From the IMG/VR virus record IMGVR_UViG_3300000227_000003, positions 1 through 49,221 of that record: DNA of 49,221 nt; one strand, written 5' to 3'. The DNA comes from a virus. The notes beneath the pieces were generated by a model. It did not search any database and was not told the origin of the DNA. It saw only the letters and a program-made list of their open reading frames with translations. How positions within the stretch are numbered: position 1 is the stretch's first letter; every line of letters starts with the position of its first letter. Shown here in pieces: positions 15,897 to 29,395 of this stretch. Made by a program: the position numbers and the translations under genes.

Positions 15897-16457
15897 ATGA
15901 GTGAAGAATATACTAGCAAACTATCAATAATCAGTGAATCTTTTCGAAATGATAATATCATCAGAAATTCTGATAGATATATGAATAATTGTCAATATAG
16001 TATTAATCATCCTAATGCGCTTTCTGATGGTGATGAAATTGGTAGAGAACCAATTGATAATGGCTATTCTGTTGGTACTTGTGTCGATATTGAAAGAAGA
16101 AATGCATTGTTAGGTATTAATAAATATAAAAATAATTGTCCATATAATACTAATCATCCTGATGCATTATCAGATGGTGATAATTTGGGTAGAAATCCCA
16201 TTAATGATGATTCATCTATTGGTACATCTTTAGATATCGAAAGAAGAAACGCATTGTTAGGTATTAATAGATATAACAATAATACTCCGTATAGTATCAA
16301 CCATCCCGACGCATTGTCAGATGGCGACAATTTAGGTAGAGAACCAATTGGAGATAATACATCAGTTGGTACTAATATTGACATTGAAAAAAGAACTTTT
16401 TTATTAAATAAAAATCAATATAATTTTTCAAATAATTACGGCATTAATTCATGGTAA
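15897..16457 (+). CDS. Triple-repeat protein (three 49-residue repeats)
   Basis: 186 residues. Three tandem repeats of exactly 49 residues follow a 30-residue leader. Each contains Y..NHP(D/N)ALSDGD..GR.PI....S.GT..DIE.R...L..N.Y. The DNA period is 147 bp (CCT/CCC codons of the NHP motif at 16011, 16158 and 16305), but the copies have diverged at synonymous sites, so the array is old. I know of no function. The glycine- and aspartate-rich, regularly spaced repeat suggests a structural or scaffolding protein, consistent with its place between head-like genes. Confidence 0.7.
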   Translation: MSEEYTSKLSIISESFRNDNIIRNSDRYMNNCQYSINHPNALSDGDEIGREPIDNGYSVGTCVDIERRNALLGINKYKNNCPYNTNHPDALSDGDNLGRNPINDDSSIGTSLDIERRNALLGINRYNNNTPYSINHPDALSDGDNLGREPIGDNTSVGTNIDIEKRTFLLNKNQYNFSNNYGINSW

Positions 16458-18128: not shown

Positions 18129-21100
18129 ATGATAAATAATGATTTATTAAAAAAATTAAATGAATTAGATAAATTTAATTCATTTACAAAGAAAGTGGAA
18201 TTTGCTAATAATAATTTCAATAAAATAGGTGCTGGCAGTGGTAGAATTGTATATCAAATTAATGACGATAAAATATTGAAATTAGCAAAAAATTCTAAAG
18301 GTATTGCTCAAAATGAAACAGAGTGCAATATTGGATATAATAATTATATTCAAAATATTGTAACAAAAATATATGACAATGCAAATGATTATAGTTGGAT
18401 TGTTGCCGAAAAAGTAAAAAAAATTAGTGAAAAAAGAATAAAACAATTAACTGGAATACCTGGTTTAAATGATTTATATGGATATTTAATAAATCATGTG
18501 AAAAATTATAATTATCATATTGATGTTAATGTTGAAAAAACATTGAATGATAACGAATTTGTTTCTGAATTGTTAGATTTAATATATAATTATAATGTTT
18601 CATATGGTGATTTAGGTAGAGTAAGTAGTTATGGTGAGGTTATTCGTAATGGTATACCAGCAGTTGTTGTTGTTGATTATGGGTTAAATGATATTGTTTA
18701 TAATAACTATTACAATCCCGATAGAAAAAGAAAACATGTTTTATATGAATTGTTTGATTGTGGGGATGGTAATGATGATATTTTAATTGATGCCGATAAT
18801 AATCATGATATTAGAAAATCTATGTGGGCATTAATACCTTATGATATTAATGTAAAAGAACAAAAAATTAATGAAAATTTTATTAATTTTGTTTTAAAGC
18901 ATAATAAATTTCCAAATAAGCCTATAAATAGAATGCCTGAATTAGCAGACTATTTTTATGATTGTATATATGGTATTAATAATGTTTTGAATATTATATC
19001 TAATCGAAAGAAATTTTATGATAATTTATTAGCATTGCAAGATTATTTAGTAAAAAATTTGTATTATGATAAAGATTTATTACTTAAAGAGGAAATTGAT
19101 TTAAACAATCCTTTTGATTTTTTAAATAAGAATGAAGCGTTTGAAATGGCAAGTGCTGTTGCAGAAAAATTAAATCTTGGTGGATTTTCATATTTGGGTG
19201 GTGAAGGCAATGGATTTGCATTTAAATTAAATAATGGTAAAGTATTAAAGTTGACAACTGATTTGTGTGAAGTTGATGCGGGCATTAAAATTAGACAGGT
19301 TTATAATGTTTTAAAAAGAATTGGTGCTGTGTATGCTGTTTATAAAATAATTGATACAGAAAAAAATAAAGTAGTATATGCATTGATTGAAGAGTTTATT
19401 CAAGATCAAATGCCAACTTATTTTCATGAATTATATCGTATTCCCGAACAAATTCGTAGCGGATTATCTCATGAATTGATGTATCTTTTGTTAAAAAATA
19501 AAACAACCAAAGAATGTCCAATTCAAGGAGATTTAAATGTATATCCACAATTAGCTCGTGAAATTTTGGATGGTAATCCAAATGCACCTGTTAGTAAGAA
19601 TGATAGAGAAAATGCATATAAATTTATGATGGATTTATATGAAATAAAAAAAGAATTGTTGGCATTAAAAATAAAATCAAATGATTTTAATAATTTTAAT
19701 AATTTAGGTTATAAAAATGGCGTTTTAAAGTATTTTGATGTTGGTGGATGTAGAGAGTCTGAACCAAATTTCCAAAAAAAAGATATTATATATTTACTCG
19801 AAAATGATGATAAATCAACAAATAATATAAATCGTGATACTTTTGACAATATTGCCTTTCAGGTTGCAAAAAAATTAAATTTAAACACACCTAAATATTT
19901 AGGTTCTGGTTATTGGGGTATTGCATATGATATTGGTAATAATTTGGTACTAAAATTAACTACAGATAGAAGTGAAGCAGCAGAAAATTTAATGTTAATT
20001 AATAAAAAATTAAAAAATATTGCTCAACCCTATAAAGTTTTAATGATTACATCTGAAAATTCAAAATATCCAGAAATTTATGCAATTGTTTTGGAAAAAT
20101 TAAGAACGTCATCCGAAATTGAACGTTTGTATAAGAGAATAAATTTTGTTTTTAAGAAATTATTAAACGTTGATTTATCTGATGTTGTGGAACATTATTT
20201 AGGTTATTGGTATAATGATGAAATTGATGAAAATAAAATTGATAACTATTTGAAAAACAATCCACAAGATAATAAATTTTTTCAGGATTTATTGAAAATT
20301 GCCAAAGAAGCAAAAGAGTTGGGTGTTGAAAGCATGGATTATCTTAATAGTAAAAATTTGGGTTATAAAAAAAATGGTGAATTAGGTTTTTTTGATGTGG
20401 GATTTGGATATTATTTAACAAATCCTCTAAATAATTTAGATAAAATTGATGTTTATGAAGATAGTACATCATTATATTCTAAATTAAATTCAATTGGTAA
20501 TGATGATTTTCCAAAATACAATAATAATAATACAGAATCTCCAATTGATAATGATTTAGATGCAAATTCTGCAATATATAATGAAAGTAAAAAATCTTAT
20601 ATGCCTAATGCTAAAACTGTATCTATAAAAAAAAAATGTAGATTAGGTGGATTAGGTAATACAAGTATCGCATGCAATCAAGGTGATATTAATAATCTAA
20701 TTTTTGGTTCAATCATTGAGGGTTCTATTCCATATAATAGAACTTTCTGGGGATGGGTATCTCCTGATAATAAATTTATCGAAGTTCCAAAATTTCGACA
20801 TCAAGAATATATTATGCGACAATATAAAAATAATGATTTTAATTGGGATTATGATAGAATTTTTAATCAAGCACTAAACGATGGTTGGATTTGTGTTGTT
20901 TTCGAATATAATTCAGATAAATCTATTGGTAGTTTATCGCTTAATGGTGGTGATATGACAAGAATTAAATCAGTTTTCAAAAACATGTTTTTAGATTTAA
21001 TTAAATATGGACATGTTGTGTATTTAGATGCTGAAAATTCACATGAAAGTAAAACATTTTTTACTAAAACTGATGATGAAAAAACAAAATTAGTCAATTT

Positions 21101-22793
21101 TATTTCCGAAAATTTTAATGAAGTTATTGATGCTTGTGAAGCATATGATGATAAAAAATCTTTGCAGACAATATTAAATGATAAACGAAATATAGCATTA
21201 ATTAGTTTATCAAATCCTAAAATTAAAGAATTGGTAAAAAAAATGGGTTTAAATATTATAAAAATTAAACAAACATATCATCCCGATTCGATTGAAATGT
21301 CAATTGTTTATCGTAATGGATATGATAAACAGGCAAATCGTTTACGTGATATTATGAAATCACATGGTGGTTATGTTAATGACCAATCACCAAGAGAAGC
21401 ATATGAAATTGGTAAATTATTAGAATATTCTGATGAGTCTATATTAAAATATATCAATAGAAAATATGTTAAATTACCGAATGGCCAATATAGATTTAGA
21501 ACAAATATTGAATTACAACAATATGATAATAACTATATCAAACAAATTCCATTTGAAGAAGAGGAATATAAAAAATATATGAATATTGATGAAACTTTGA
21601 ATAACAACACAAATATGACGAAAATAATGTCATTAGAAAATTTGCCTTTTAAGGATGATATAATTAAATTGGGTGGTAATATCTATAGTGTTGGTGGTGC
21701 TGTTCGTGATGAATTTTTAGATAAAGAATCTAAAGATTTAGATATTCTTATTTCGGGTATTCCAATGGATAAATTAGAAGATATTCTTTCTAAATATGGC
21801 CGTGTTGATGCTGTTGATAAATTATTTGGTATTTTGAAATTCAAACCAAATGGCTCTATTGAAGATATTGATATTGCAATTCTAAGAACCGAAAAATCAA
21901 CTGGAGTTGGGGGTCATAAAGGATTTGAGGTTAAATCTAATCATGAACTTTCAATTGAAAAAGATTTAGAGCGTAGAGATTTTACAATAAATGCCATTGC
22001 TAAAGATATTAATGGTAATATCATAGACCCATATGGCGGTAAGAAAGATCTTGAAAATAAAATAATTCGTATTGTTAATTCTGAAGCGTTTTGCGATGAC
22101 CCATTACGTATGCTACGTGCAGTTCAATTTGCAAGTCGTTTTGGATTTGAGATAGAACCCAAAACAATGAAAATGATTCAAAATAATTCAAGTAGGATTA
22201 AAGAAATACCTGCCGAAAGAATATTGACTGAATTTGATAAAATTGTCAAAAAGGGTGATATATTTGGAGGTGCTTTATTATTAAAACAAACAGGATTGCT
22301 ATCGCAAATTTTTGGTAGAGATGCTGATATTTTAATGGGAAAAAATGTGTGGAATAATATTAAAACAATGGGAGAGTTTATTTATCTATTATCTCATAAT
22401 CTTGTTGATAATCCTGCAGAATTTTATAAAAATAAATTAAGGGGTGATATTAATACTTATAAGGAAATTAAAGCAATACAATTAGCATTTGAAAATGGTA
22501 ATATTAATAATATTACAATAGCATGTATAATAGCACATAATATGTATGTTATTTCACCACAATCATTGCAAAGTAAAATATTACCTAATATTATCAAAAT
22601 TGCAGCACACGAACTACTTACTGGTAAATTTCCAAAAACAATTAGTGAACTTGCAATAAATGGTAATGATTTATTATCATTGGGTTTACACGACAAACAA
22701 ATTGGTGATTCGCTTAAATTCATGTTAATTAATGTATATTCAGGTAAAGTGAAAAATAATAAAAATGATTTGTTGTCATTAATATTAAAATAA
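18129..22793 (+). CDS. Giant fusion: three kinase-like domains plus CCA-adding-type tRNA nucleotidyltransferase
   Basis: 1554 residues, no internal stop. Domain 1 (about 25-210) has GAGSGR, KILKLAK, YGDLG and VVDYG; domain 2 (about 345-560) GGEGNG, KVLKLTTD and YFDVGG; domain 3 (about 580-780) GSGYWG, LVLKLTTD and FFDVG. These follow the glycine loop, lysine strand and DFG-like order of protein-kinase-like folds, but HRD-type catalytic loops are weak or missing, so they may be pseudokinases. Residues about 830-1150 are unassigned. Residues 1170-1554 are a class II CCA-adding/poly(A) polymerase domain: GGAVRD (from 1189), DLDI, RRDFTINAIA, DPYGGKKDL, DPLRMLRAVQFASRFGF, IPAERI. It would add CCA or A residues to RNA 3' ends. 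Why kinase-like folds are fused to it is not known; a polyprotein cut by a phage protease is an alternative. Confidence 0.85.
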   Translation: MINNDLLKKLNELDKFNSFTKKVEFANNNFNKIGAGSGRIVYQINDDKILKLAKNSKGIAQNETECNIGYNNYIQNIVTKIYDNANDYSWIVAEKVKKISEKRIKQLTGIPGLNDLYGYLINHVKNYNYHIDVNVEKTLNDNEFVSELLDLIYNYNVSYGDLGRVSSYGEVIRNGIPAVVVVDYGLNDIVYNNYYNPDRKRKHVLYELFDCGDGNDDILIDADNNHDIRKSMWALIPYDINVKEQKINENFINFVLKHNKFPNKPINRMPELADYFYDCIYGINNVLNIISNRKKFYDNLLALQDYLVKNLYYDKDLLLKEEIDLNNPFDFLNKNEAFEMASAVAEKLNLGGFSYLGGEGNGFAFKLNNGKVLKLTTDLCEVDAGIKIRQVYNVLKRIGAVYAVYKIIDTEKNKVVYALIEEFIQDQMPTYFHELYRIPEQIRSGLSHELMYLLLKNKTTKECPIQGDLNVYPQLAREILDGNPNAPVSKNDRENAYKFMMDLYEIKKELLALKIKSNDFNNFNNLGYKNGVLKYFDVGGCRESEPNFQKKDIIYLLENDDKSTNNINRDTFDNIAFQVAKKLNLNTPKYLGSGYWGIAYDIGNNLVLKLTTDRSEAAENLMLINKKLKNIAQPYKVLMITSENSKYPEIYAIVLEKLRTSSEIERLYKRINFVFKKLLNVDLSDVVEHYLGYWYNDEIDENKIDNYLKNNPQDNKFFQDLLKIAKEAKELGVESMDYLNSKNLGYKKNGELGFFDVGFGYYLTNPLNNLDKIDVYEDSTSLYSKLNSIGNDDFPKYNNNNTESPIDNDLDANSAIYNESKKSYMPNAKTVSIKKKCRLGGLGNTSIACNQGDINNLIFGSIIEGSIPYNRTFWGWVSPDNKFIEVPKFRHQEYIMRQYKNNDFNWDYDRIFNQALNDGWICVVFEYNSDKSIGSLSLNGGDMTRIKSVFKNMFLDLIKYGHVVYLDAENSHESKTFFTKTDDEKTKLVNFISENFNEVIDACEAYDDKKSLQTILNDKRNIALISLSNPKIKELVKKMGLNIIKIKQTYHPDSIEMSIVYRNGYDKQANRLRDIMKSHGGYVNDQSPREAYEIGKLLEYSDESILKYINRKYVKLPNGQYRFRTNIELQQYDNNYIKQIPFEEEEYKKYMNIDETLNNNTNMTKIMSLENLPFKDDIIKLGGNIYSVGGAVRDEFLDKESKDLDILISGIPMDKLEDILSKYGRVDAVDKLFGILKFKPNGSIEDIDIAILRTEKSTGVGGHKGFEVKSNHELSIEKDLERRDFTINAIAKDINGNIIDPYGGKKDLENKIIRIVNSEAFCDDPLRMLRAVQFASRFGFEIEPKTMKMIQNNSSRIKEIPAERILTEFDKIVKKGDIFGGALLLKQTGLLSQIFGRDADILMGKNVWNNIKTMGEFIYLLSHNLVDNPAEFYKNKLRGDINTYKEIKAIQLAFENGNINNITIACIIAHNMYVISPQSLQSKILPNIIKIAAHELLTGKFPKTISELAINGNDLLSLGLHDKQIGDSLKFMLINVYSGKVKNNKNDLLSLILK

Positions 22794-22972: not shown

Positions 22973-23356
22973 ATGAGTAAAATTGCATATAGCGCAGTAG
23001 TATTAGATGATAAATCTAGAAATAAATTAATTAAGATGTTTGAATCGTTAATACCTAAAGATTGGGAAATAATTGCACATCATATGACAATAAATATGGG
23101 GAAAATTGATTCTGAATATGAAAAATATTTAGGTTTTCCAATACGATTAAAAGTTGAAGATTGGGCAATTGATGATAGAGTATTGGCGGTTGGTGTTAGT
23201 GGTTTTGGTAGTAAAAATGCAAAACCTTATATAATAATAGCAGTAAATAGAAAAGAAGGGGGAAAACCATATATGTTAAATATGTTAAAAAATTGGAAAA
23301 TTGTAAAAAAACCTTTATATTTGACAGGTAAAATTACGGAAGTTCCATTTAAATGA
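22973..23356 (+). CDS. 2H-phosphoesterase-like protein (RNA-repair type)
   Basis: 127 residues. YSAVVLDDKSRNKL begins a fold of the 2H/LigT type, and HHMTINMG supplies the first HxT motif. At the place of the second HxT the sequence reads KPYIIIAVN, so that histidine and threonine are missing and activity may be lost. 2H enzymes act on cyclic or terminal phosphates in RNA; relatives in phages accompany RNA ligase or HAD domains of the Swiss Army Knife RNA repair type. The next genes include a decayed HAD phosphatase, and the CCA-type enzyme is immediately upstream, which supports an RNA-end-repair theme. Family assignment is by pattern only. Confidence 0.5.
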   Translation: MSKIAYSAVVLDDKSRNKLIKMFESLIPKDWEIIAHHMTINMGKIDSEYEKYLGFPIRLKVEDWAIDDRVLAVGVSGFGSKNAKPYIIIAVNRKEGGKPYMLNMLKNWKIVKKPLYLTGKITEVPFK

Positions 23357-23892: not shown

Positions 23893-24467
23893 ATGGAAAG
23901 AAATGATAATATATTAAGAATATGTGTATTTGATTTTGATGGTACACTTATTAATTCTCCAGAACCAGAAACAGGAAAATTATAATGGTCAAAAAAAACT
24001 GGAAAACCATATCCACATATTGGTTGGTGGGGTAAACCAGAAAGTTTGGATGTGTCAATATTTGATATAAAACCATTTAATAGTGTTTTAAATCAATTAA
24101 AAAAGGAACAATCAAAACCCAATACATATTTGATAATAATGACATCAAGAATAAAAAAAAAATAAAACCATATATTGAAAGAGTATTAGAGATTAATAAT
24201 ATAAGGGTTGATTATATTGATACTAAAGATAATGGAGATGATAAAGGAACAAGAATATTAAAATATTTGGATATATTTCCTAATGTTAATGAAATAAGTG
24301 TGTATGATGATAGTGATATTGAATCATACTTAAAAATAAAAAACAAGTTACCGTTAAATATTACGTTCAATATATATAAAGTAGATAATGATAGAATTAT
24401 GATTATAGAAGAAACTAAAAATAAAATAATTAGGATTATTAATGAAGAAATAAAAAAAAATTTTTGA
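23893..24467 (+). pseudogene. Disrupted HAD-superfamily phosphatase (Swiss Army Knife RNA-repair type)
   Basis: The ATG at 23893 opens VFDFDGTLINSP, the HAD motif I (DxD), followed by a PHIGWWGKPESLD segment typical of HAD domains in Swiss Army Knife RNA repair proteins. A TAA at 23983-23985 interrupts it before a conserved Trp. A one-base deletion in an A run at about 24153-24163 then shifts the frame; the shifted frame continues KPYIERVLEINNIRVDYIDTKD...SVYDDSD to 24467. MTSR near the shift fits motif II. Nonsense and frameshift lesions together suggest real decay rather than a single sequencing error. Confidence 0.65.
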
Positions 24468-24477
24468 AGTATTTATA
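24468..24477 (+). promoter_or_regulatory. AGTATTTATA phage promoter-like motif
   Basis: Exact motif starting immediately after the stop of the HAD pseudogene, ending 20 bases before the ATG at 24498. Confidence 0.6.
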
Positions 24478-24497
24478 AATAAAATATTTTGAATATA

Positions 24498-25304
24498 ATG
24501 GTAAATATGAGATATAAACCACAATTTTTACCACAAATAAGCGCACCATTTTCAATTGTATTAAACAAATTGAAAGAATATAATGTCGATTATGAATCAG
24601 TTAAAATAAATCCAAATGAATTAGAACCGATGCAAAGTATTACATTTAATAATGAAGTAATGAATGCGGTTTTGGATAATATAAATCCAATTTGGATTAG
24701 TAATAATAATAATATATTAGATGGACATCATCGTATGGTAAAAGCACTTATTTTGGGAGTACCAATAAGTGCAATTAGAATAAAATTAAATGATATGGAT
24801 GCTTGTAGAATATTAAATAAAATACAAGATATTTATGAATATGAGCAATCAATATCAATTGAAGAGGTAGAACAACAAGATGTTATTAATTATTATCAAG
24901 ATAATGAATATGATTTTATAAAAGAATTAGAAGAAAATATATCATCAGTAAATGAAAAAAATAAGCAAATAGTTATTGGATATAGAAAAGGTCCTATAAA
25001 AGAAAAATCAACAATTGGTAATTTTTTTGTGTTATCGCCAATAGAAGGATTTGATAAATATGAAATAGTATTTGATAATTTATTAGATACGAATGCAATA
25101 GGCATAACATGTTTTATTAATGGACAAGAACCGATAGACGTATTAGCAAAAAATTGGTTTCCACATATTAAATTTGAAGAAATATCAAAAATATATAATA
25201 TTGAACCTATATTATTGAAAAATAAGGCAATAGTAGAAAAAGCAAAAAAAATGGGTTATGACGGGATTAAATATGGTGATAAAATAATACAAGGATTAAA
25301 ATAA
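24498..25304 (+). CDS. ParB/sulfiredoxin-like domain protein with unknown C-terminal domain
   Basis: 268 residues from the ATG at 24498; an ATG at 24507 (MRYKPQF) is equally possible, while a TTG at 24489 is unlikely. Residues 35-120 read PNELEPMQSITF, INPIWISNNNNILDGHHRMVKALILG, which is the ParB-like nuclease/Srx fold with the DGHHR motif. ParB folds bind or hydrolyse nucleotides, often CTP. The C-terminal half (about 150-268) includes VIGYRKGPI and ends AKKMGYDGIKYGDKIIQGLK. A GYDGI.Y ending is seen in several phage effector-like domains, including ADP-ribosyltransferase-like ones, but the assignment is weak. It is first of a unit with the gene at 25313. Confidence 0.6.
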   Translation: MVNMRYKPQFLPQISAPFSIVLNKLKEYNVDYESVKINPNELEPMQSITFNNEVMNAVLDNINPIWISNNNNILDGHHRMVKALILGVPISAIRIKLNDMDACRILNKIQDIYEYEQSISIEEVEQQDVINYYQDNEYDFIKELEENISSVNEKNKQIVIGYRKGPIKEKSTIGNFFVLSPIEGFDKYEIVFDNLLDTNAIGITCFINGQEPIDVLAKNWFPHIKFEEISKIYNIEPILLKNKAIVEKAKKMGYDGIKYGDKIIQGLK

Positions 25305-28857: not shown

Positions 28858-29379
28858 TTAAATGGTTATTGCATTTTTATCAAAAATTTTTACTTTTCTT
28901 TCAATAACAATATACTCACCGTAATATCTTGGATAGTAATTTGGATTATCAGGTTCAACTTCTTTAATAGCAGCAACATATAGTTTATATCTTCGTGGGT
29001 CGGATGGATGTATTTTAACTGCATTTGGTTTATATTTTTCAAGAAAATCTTTGAAAATTTTAGTTATTGTTGACATAATATTACCTACCTTAAATTCGTT
29101 AGTCATTGTATTGGGAGTACCATCCGAAACACCAAATTGAAATGACCATATTCTTTTTATTCTATCTTCTAAATCAAAATATGCAATATAATCATTATTT
29201 TCGGTATCAAATTCGTATTCCACGTAATTATAACTTAAATCATTACGTTTAAATTTATATGGTTCTTTTGTGGTGATGTCATATTCATCAATATTATGTA
29301 ATCTTTCACCAAATTCTGGAAAATTAGCACCATGTAGGCTTTCAATTTCTTCTATAATAATTTGCATTATTTTATTCAT
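28858..29379 (-). CDS. Hypothetical phage protein (conserved type)
   Basis: 173 residues from the ATG at 29379. An ATG at 29391 is in frame but would lie only 4 bases from the promoter-like motif, whereas 29379 has the 16-base spacing seen at other genes. The protein is mixed alpha/beta, with EYEFDTENNDYIAYFDLEDR, then IMSTITKIFKDFLEKYKPNAVKIHPSDPRRYKLY, here two adjoining stretches (IMSTITKIFKDFLEKY and KIHPSDPRRYKLY). I associate this pattern with small phage proteins of unknown function. It is one of very few minus-strand genes and starts divergently from the baseplate block. Confidence 0.6.
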   Translation of the reverse strand: MNKIMQIIIEEIESLHGANFPEFGERLHNIDEYDITTKEPYKFKRNDLSYNYVEYEFDTENNDYIAYFDLEDRIKRIWSFQFGVSDGTPNTMTNEFKVGNIMSTITKIFKDFLEKYKPNAVKIHPSDPRRYKLYVAAIKEVEPDNPNYYPRYYGEYIVIERKVKIFDKNAITI

Positions 29380-29395
29380 GTGATAAAACATTTAT

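Follow-up and report, generated by a model that had tools for sequence, protein, structure and literature searches.

What is encoded by a viral reading frame of 1554 codons that joins kinase-like modules to a CCA-adding-type enzyme? The question is raised by a 49,221-nucleotide stretch of DNA (hereafter the window; positions 1 to 49,221 of IMG/VR record IMGVR_UViG_3300000227_000003), in which a first-pass annotation, made from the sequence letters, had noticed three diverged kinase-like modules, an unassigned 300-residue region, and a complete set of class II CCA-adding/poly(A) polymerase motifs in one frame. It had offered three explanations: a tRNA-repair enzyme with sensing domains, a virion-packaged effector, or a polyprotein cut by the phage protease. 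We find that this giant fused protein, P0001, represents a real, widespread family of environmental T4-like phages, and we lean modestly toward the view that these T4-like large phages package it in the virion as an effector polyprotein, which the capsid protease matures.

A giant fused protein recurs in T4-like phages

P0001 (1554 amino acids (aa); 18129..22793, plus strand, as are all its features given below) is encoded by an intact open reading frame (ORF) that starts with ATG, stays open over 1554 codons as first described, and is present as a single copy in the 87.9-kb virus record holding the window. The same record carries T4-like genes for DNA polymerase, primase, helicase, gp46/47-type nucleases, a sigma factor, and a baseplate wedge protein. 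A PADLOC scan of P0001 gave no match, nor did IMG/VR searches with one or two sequences (whole P0001 or its modules K2/K3), or tblastn of K2/K3 and the middle region against named phages. Relatives were gathered by scanning IMG/VR with a pair alignment of the C-terminal nucleotidyltransferase (NTase), which returned 65 loci. About 30 distinct IMG/VR loci encode fused single-frame proteins, about 690-3110 aa long, in the module order K1-K2/K3-linker-variable modules-NTase-(2H), and a 1641-aa version lies on a contig of one Bacteroidota metagenome-assembled genome, from which alone a Bacteroidota host might be guessed.

Such a frame could be an assembly or annotation artefact that fuses adjacent genes. 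Consistent with this, the NTase is a separate next gene in a few relatives (L045), and the adjoining HAD gene is frameshifted in the 87.9-kb record. Yet the same fusion is found in about 30 contigs of different metagenomes with conserved junctions, and the fused members cluster on the NTase tree (3 label changes, versus 14.8 in shuffles). We therefore reject an artefact, to which we give almost no credence: the parts do occur as ordinary separate genes, as the first-pass annotation had cautioned, but in a few split relatives set against about 30 independent fused contigs.

Three kinase-like modules at the N terminus

The N-terminal half of P0001 contains three predicted kinase folds: K1 (aa 1-207; 18129..18749), K2 (aa 335-560; 19131..19808), and K3 (aa 566-775; 19824..20453). 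K1 displays the motifs GAGSGR at residue 34, ILKLA at 49, GDLGR at 160, and DYG at 183, whereas K2 and K3 share a Gly loop, VLKLTTD, D...N, and DVG. K2 and K3 are 30% identical over 246 aa (E 1e-18), which identifies them, at the sequence level, as a tandem duplication; K1 is a more distant relative of both. In the family alignment of K2/K3, the Gly-loop Gly, the Lys, the Glu, the catalytic Asp, the Asn, and the DxG are invariant or nearly so, and in that of K1 the catalytic-loop Asn is replaced. AlphaFold2 models of aa 1-862, built with 19 homologues, had predicted local distance difference test (pLDDT) scores mostly of 80-95 across the modules, each of which spans ~200 aa and retains a short helical C-lobe. 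As assessed by Foldseek against the PDB, these modules matched kinase folds only, namely APH(2'') and JNK3, with a probability of 0.99-1.0 and E values of only ~1e-3; the template modeling scores were low because the query contains three domains. Against viral models, the matches were ~200-aa phage kinase-like proteins, with E values down to 3e-13. The annotated trio of kinase-like modules is thus borne out by motifs and predicted structures alike, and the suggestion of sensing domains found no support. Matches of the kinase profile to penicillin-binding protein 2x were judged to be due to chance, as they aligned the middle only and left out the active site.

K1 is related to phrog_4301 and to proteins of ~200 aa that stand alone in several jumbo phages, 121Q, RaK2, and XacN1 among them. 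The K modules thus resemble SteC-type and phage minimal kinases (phrog_4301), which have a small kinase fold with a Gly loop, Lys, and DxG, and P0001 differs from these in carrying three in series and in the missing catalytic-loop Asn of its K1. K1 is followed by a conserved, putatively helical region (aa 216-325; 18774..19103) absent from the initial account, for which a hidden Markov model (K1C) found 28 ORFs.

A near-invariant linker and an NleE-like module in the middle region

Profile searches partly resolved the formerly unassigned region. It begins with a near-invariant 45-aa linker (KKCRLGGLGNTSIACNQGDINNL; aa 819-866; 20583..20726), in which the element KKCRLGGLGNTSxACNQGDINNL is almost unchanged across more than 30 relatives. 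This element forms the protein start in L030 and L032, is present in two copies in L041, and is a strong marker for finding the whole family. Next comes MID0, a putative module of ~125 aa (20727..21122) that recurs in L017, L022 (twice), and L050. A GNAT (NatC) fold match that probably falls on MID0 (E 0.04, probability 0.57) was too weak to be used, and a likeness noticed by eye between MID0 and repeats beside the NTase of phage LR756504 was not supported by phmmer.

The third part, MID (aa 999-1125; 21123..21503), is remotely related to the cysteine methyltransferase NleE, as judged from profiles and predicted structure. Foldseek matched it to NleE (E 8.6e-3, probability 1.0), the MID family profile matched NleE in the PDB (E 4e-4), and the Pfam NleE family was found in 5 of 18 MID members (best E 1.7e-4), the MID of P0001 itself being without a Pfam match. 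NleE requires an Arg for S-adenosylmethionine (SAM) binding (PMC4239114). At the position of NleE R107, 13 of the 18 members have Arg and the other 5 have Lys; of the other SAM-binding residues of NleE, the position of Tyr212 aligns as well, and that of Glu191 falls inside an unaligned insert. MID therefore resembles the NleE/OspZ effectors (PF20798) in profile and fold, and differs from them in being phage-encoded, shorter, and remote in sequence, with a methyltransferase activity that is a prediction.

A CCA-adding-type nucleotidyltransferase with RNA-end partners

The C terminus of P0001 (aa 1165-1554; 21621..22790) is, by its sequence and modeled fold, a full-length class II CCA-adding-type NTase, predicted to add CCA. 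It matches Pfam PolyA_pol (2e-23) and PolyA_pol_RNAbd (3e-13), and Foldseek aligned it with the CCA-adding enzyme 1miv over 403 columns that include the tail domain (E 2e-18). Pfam, PHROGs, PDB sequence search, and Foldseek all agree on this assignment. The module carries motif A GGxxRD...DxD (here GGAVRD/DLDI), RRD, (E/D)DxxR (DDPLR), ERI, and the C-terminal helical body of class II CCA enzymes, so that the annotated motif set is indeed complete. A poly(A) polymerase is not favored, since CCA enzymes give the best structural matches; by eye, the conserved stretch VGKxFGV is unlike the poly(A) polymerase signature. Comparison with L010 gave a nonsynonymous rate (dN) of 0.16, a synonymous rate (dS) of 0.74, and a ratio of about 0.2, which indicates purifying selection. 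A 41% identical NTase is a separate gene in the huge phage LR756504. Compared with known class II CCA-adding enzymes (1miv, 6ibp, and the phage relatives in phrog_2244), which it resembles in full-length fold and motifs, this NTase is distinguished by being the last module, or nearly so, of a kinase/methyltransferase polyprotein and by its partners.

These partners lie just downstream on the plus strand, where the first-pass annotation had pointed to 2H- and HAD-type genes, and the order NTase-2H-HAD-ParB is kept in most relatives. The 2H, tRNA-ligase-CPD-like gene (22973..23356) corresponds to a module that is fused to the C terminus in about 12 relatives and that matches tRNA_lig_CPD in 18 of 20 members. 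Both HxT motifs are present in 38 of 39 copies, and the second is lost in the window (PHITIA to PYIIIA, i.e. HIT to YII). The HAD phosphatase gene (23893..24480) occupies this position undamaged in most relatives. Here its frame is broken twice, by an in-frame TAA and by a frameshift in a poly-A tract, which may be either true decay or a sequencing error. The conserved fourth gene of the neighborhood is ParB-like (24489..25304); its C-terminal stretch AKKMGYDGIKYGD resembles, by eye, ART-PolyVal domains. In L046 (6283-8433), a 717-aa protein fuses 2H, CCA-type NTase, and HAD_SAK and so, by its domain content, unites all parts of an RNA 3'-end repair set. That the NTase is syntenic or fused with 2H and HAD suggests, from gene content, an RNA 3'-end repair set; the RNA ligases and the many tRNA genes of relatives are in keeping with it. 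Similar 2H/CPD and HAD_SAK partners are found in Swiss-Army-Knife and Trl1 RNA-repair enzymes, from which this set differs in that the NTase replaces the ligase. In jumbo phages, CCA enzymes, 2H, and HAD have been listed as RNA-repair genes that are separate from one another (Iyer et al. 2021). The proposed tRNA-repair enzyme thus fits the NTase and its 2H/HAD partners, and leaves the other modules uncovered.

The NTase module could instead serve mainly to mature the phage's own tRNAs, its fusion being incidental. Indeed, a relative may carry as many as 53 tRNA genes, and an encoded CCA is missing from 181 of the 188 genes scored. As a separate observation, nearly all tRNA genes of L181-L188 have one C after the discriminator, followed by A/T rather than CCA. 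Maturation would not, however, need the 2H and HAD partners, and the NTase is kept in two tRNA-poor phage records, G008 (299 kb, 6 tRNAs detected) and G009 (266 kb, 1 tRNA). We regard this explanation as distinctly unlikely. Still less probable, in our judgment, is that the NTase is a weapon or protein modifier, making wrong additions to host tRNAs or transferring nucleoside monophosphates to proteins. Its companions are effector-like, and the small Pol-beta NTases of polyvalent proteins have been proposed to modify proteins (PMC5512222), but the module has the full-length CCA-enzyme fold with a tail domain, its class II motifs are conserved under purifying selection, and its partners are RNA-end-healing enzymes.

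Candidate prohead-protease sites mark the module junctions

In T4, gp21 cleaves after L/I-X-E, a site also found at the end of short N-terminal propeptides that target proteins to the capsid (PMC9026906). Six candidate sites of the form [ILM]xE flank the modules of P0001: LNE-12 near the N terminus (18156..18164), LKE-321 ahead of K2 (19083..19091), LLE-558 between K2 and K3 (19794..19802), IIE-864 past the linker (20712..20720), ISE-994 between MID0 and MID (21102..21110), and IDE-1155 ahead of the NTase (21585..21593). Across the family, the motif lies just upstream of the NTase in 28 of 31 cases (mean of 8.8 and maximum of 17 in shuffled linkers), of MID in 13 of 18 (shuffled, 3.2), and of 2H in 8 of 8 (shuffled, 2.5), and it flanks the 45-aa linker on its 5' side in 23 of 31 (shuffled, 5.6) and on its 3' side in 26 of 32 (shuffled, 5.4). 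It is typically LNE, INE, or MNE, with mostly N at P2 and mostly A, E, or S at P1'.

The presumptive protease is encoded by relatives: gp21 (Peptidase S77) and the capsid protein gp23 co-occur in 6 of 14 records, including almost all of the largest ones, and in all six the capsid protein has MINE|S within its propeptide region. In two of the relatives, L087 (G008) and L088 (G006), the gp21-type frame is 614-639 aa long and matches the profile in two parts, separated by an insert that starts with CVNASESMICTKNGWKWF and looks, from its sequence, like an intein. Moreover, 7 of 9 standalone K1-type proteins start with a stretch like a capsid-targeting sequence (CTS), e.g. MKFADFLNE|AP. Junction motifs, gp21 in relatives, and CTS-like N termini of standalone relatives together favor, among the explanations first offered, a combination of two, the virion-packaged effector and the polyprotein cut by the phage protease. 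A close parallel would be T4 Alt and the internal proteins with capsid-targeting sequences, which P0001 may resemble in head entry and in gp21-type cleavage after L/I-x-E. Here, unlike in T4, a series of effectors occupies one chain with candidate sites at the junctions.

Several observations weigh against this interpretation. The shuffle test ignores the relatedness of the sequences. P0001 has 22 [ILM]xE sites, only six of which are at junctions, and has YNE rather than [ILM]xE ahead of the linker, so the argument for cleavage rests on the family. Neither gp21 nor gp23 was found in the 87.9-kb record, probably because it is a fragment. The N termini of the giant proteins bear only a loose resemblance to a CTS, and 2 of the 9 standalone K1 proteins (121Q, Hallingskeid) are without such a tag. 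The K1 homologue of RaK2 (ORF356) is annotated as hypothetical, and the text of that phage's proteomics paper does not name it as a structural protein; that of XacN1 (ORF170) is unnamed in the main text of its own. Finally, the damaged look of the 2H and HAD genes in the 87.9-kb record and the retention of the NTase in the tRNA-poor records count on the same side.

The lack of proteomic evidence for packaging would also suit an uncut multifunctional protein made in the infected cell, a tethered, unpackaged host-takeover machine in which [LIM]xE is a linker style, as would the position of the RaK2 homologue among small hypothetical genes, rather than named structural ones, and the common occurrence of E-rich linkers in domain fusions. 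This is the most serious alternative, and we nevertheless hold it to be unlikely. The motif is placed specifically beside modules, whereas the linkers as a whole show no enrichment of its reverse or of most of the other control motifs; linker sequence is otherwise freely variable; the same INE type is present in the capsid-protein propeptide region; standalone relatives have CTS-like N termini; and the polyvalent theme is tied to delivery with DNA (PMC5512222).

Relationship with polyvalent proteins and exchange of modules

Polyvalent proteins, described by Iyer et al. in 2017, combine kinases, GNATs, ARTs, ParB, and 2H domains and are thought to be injected with DNA (PMC5512222). Like them, members of the family join numerous enzyme modules of unrelated activity, two at the least, in a single polypeptide of a phage: kinase, NleE-like, and CCA-adding-type in P0001, and GNAT, ART-PolyVal, ParB-like, and 2H in relatives. 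The first-pass annotation knew of no described protein with this architecture. The main text of the 2017 survey mentions neither a CCA-adding-type NTase nor NleE, but the mix of kinase, GNAT, ART, 2H, and ParB is the published theme (PMC5512222). Polyvalent-protein kinases form a monophyletic group without the C-terminal subdomain, and the Pol-beta NTases of these proteins, which come from conjugative elements, are of a minimal, NTox45-like kind (PMC5512222), whereas the family NTase is full-length. Processing by a zincin-like metallopeptidase is a common, not universal, feature of polyvalent proteins (PMC5512222). Scanning P0001 and ten relatives with Pfam revealed no peptidase, metallopeptidases included, and [LIM]xE junctions that fit the prohead protease stand in its place. 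The family therefore extends polyvalent proteins with a new variant.

The variable modules of the relatives are exchangeable and include GNAT, ART-PolyVal, ParB-like, 2H/Acb1-like, and DUF3990. In L075 (7920-11021), a K1 module shares one frame with a counter-restriction enzyme, namely a SAM lyase (PF23780, E 2e-16). In the window, a 177-aa gene on the minus strand (28858-29391) is homologous to the X28 module inside the L012 giant protein (aa 1221-1400), a case in which, by homology, a part has moved between standalone gene and polyprotein. Elsewhere in the window, a 186-aa protein (15897-16457, plus strand) consists of three repeats of ~43 aa (NHPDALSDGDNLGRxPI...SIGTSLDIERRNALLG).

Proposed mechanism and implications

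We propose that one chain would be translated during assembly and directed into the prohead, where a gp21-type protease would cut after [L/I/M]-x-E at the module junctions, releasing the kinases, the NleE-like cysteine methyltransferase, the linker element, and the CCA-adding NTase as separate proteins. These would be ejected along with the DNA, and host proteins would be modified at time zero by the kinases and the methyltransferase and, in relatives, by GNAT, ART, and ParB-like modules. The NTase, with the 2H phosphodiesterase and the HAD phosphatase, might act on tRNAs damaged by host RNases, terminal phosphates being opened and removed and the 3' CCA rebuilt, and it may also finish phage tRNAs whose genes are without CCA. 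That such a kit of kinases, cysteine methyltransferase, acetyltransferase, ADP-ribosyltransferase, 2H, and CCA enzyme is cut by the capsid protease and delivered by the virion, with repair of tRNA 3' ends and modification of proteins thus preceding any phage gene expression, seems to us plausible, if somewhat short of an even chance.

These findings extend polyvalent proteins to T4-like large phages and add two catalytic kinds to them, the CCA-adding type and the NleE-like type. The conserved NTase-2H-HAD set points to a tRNA 3'-end repair pathway that would counter host RNases. The delivery logic, if true, would be one in which a single chain links the effectors and sites for the capsid protease separate them.

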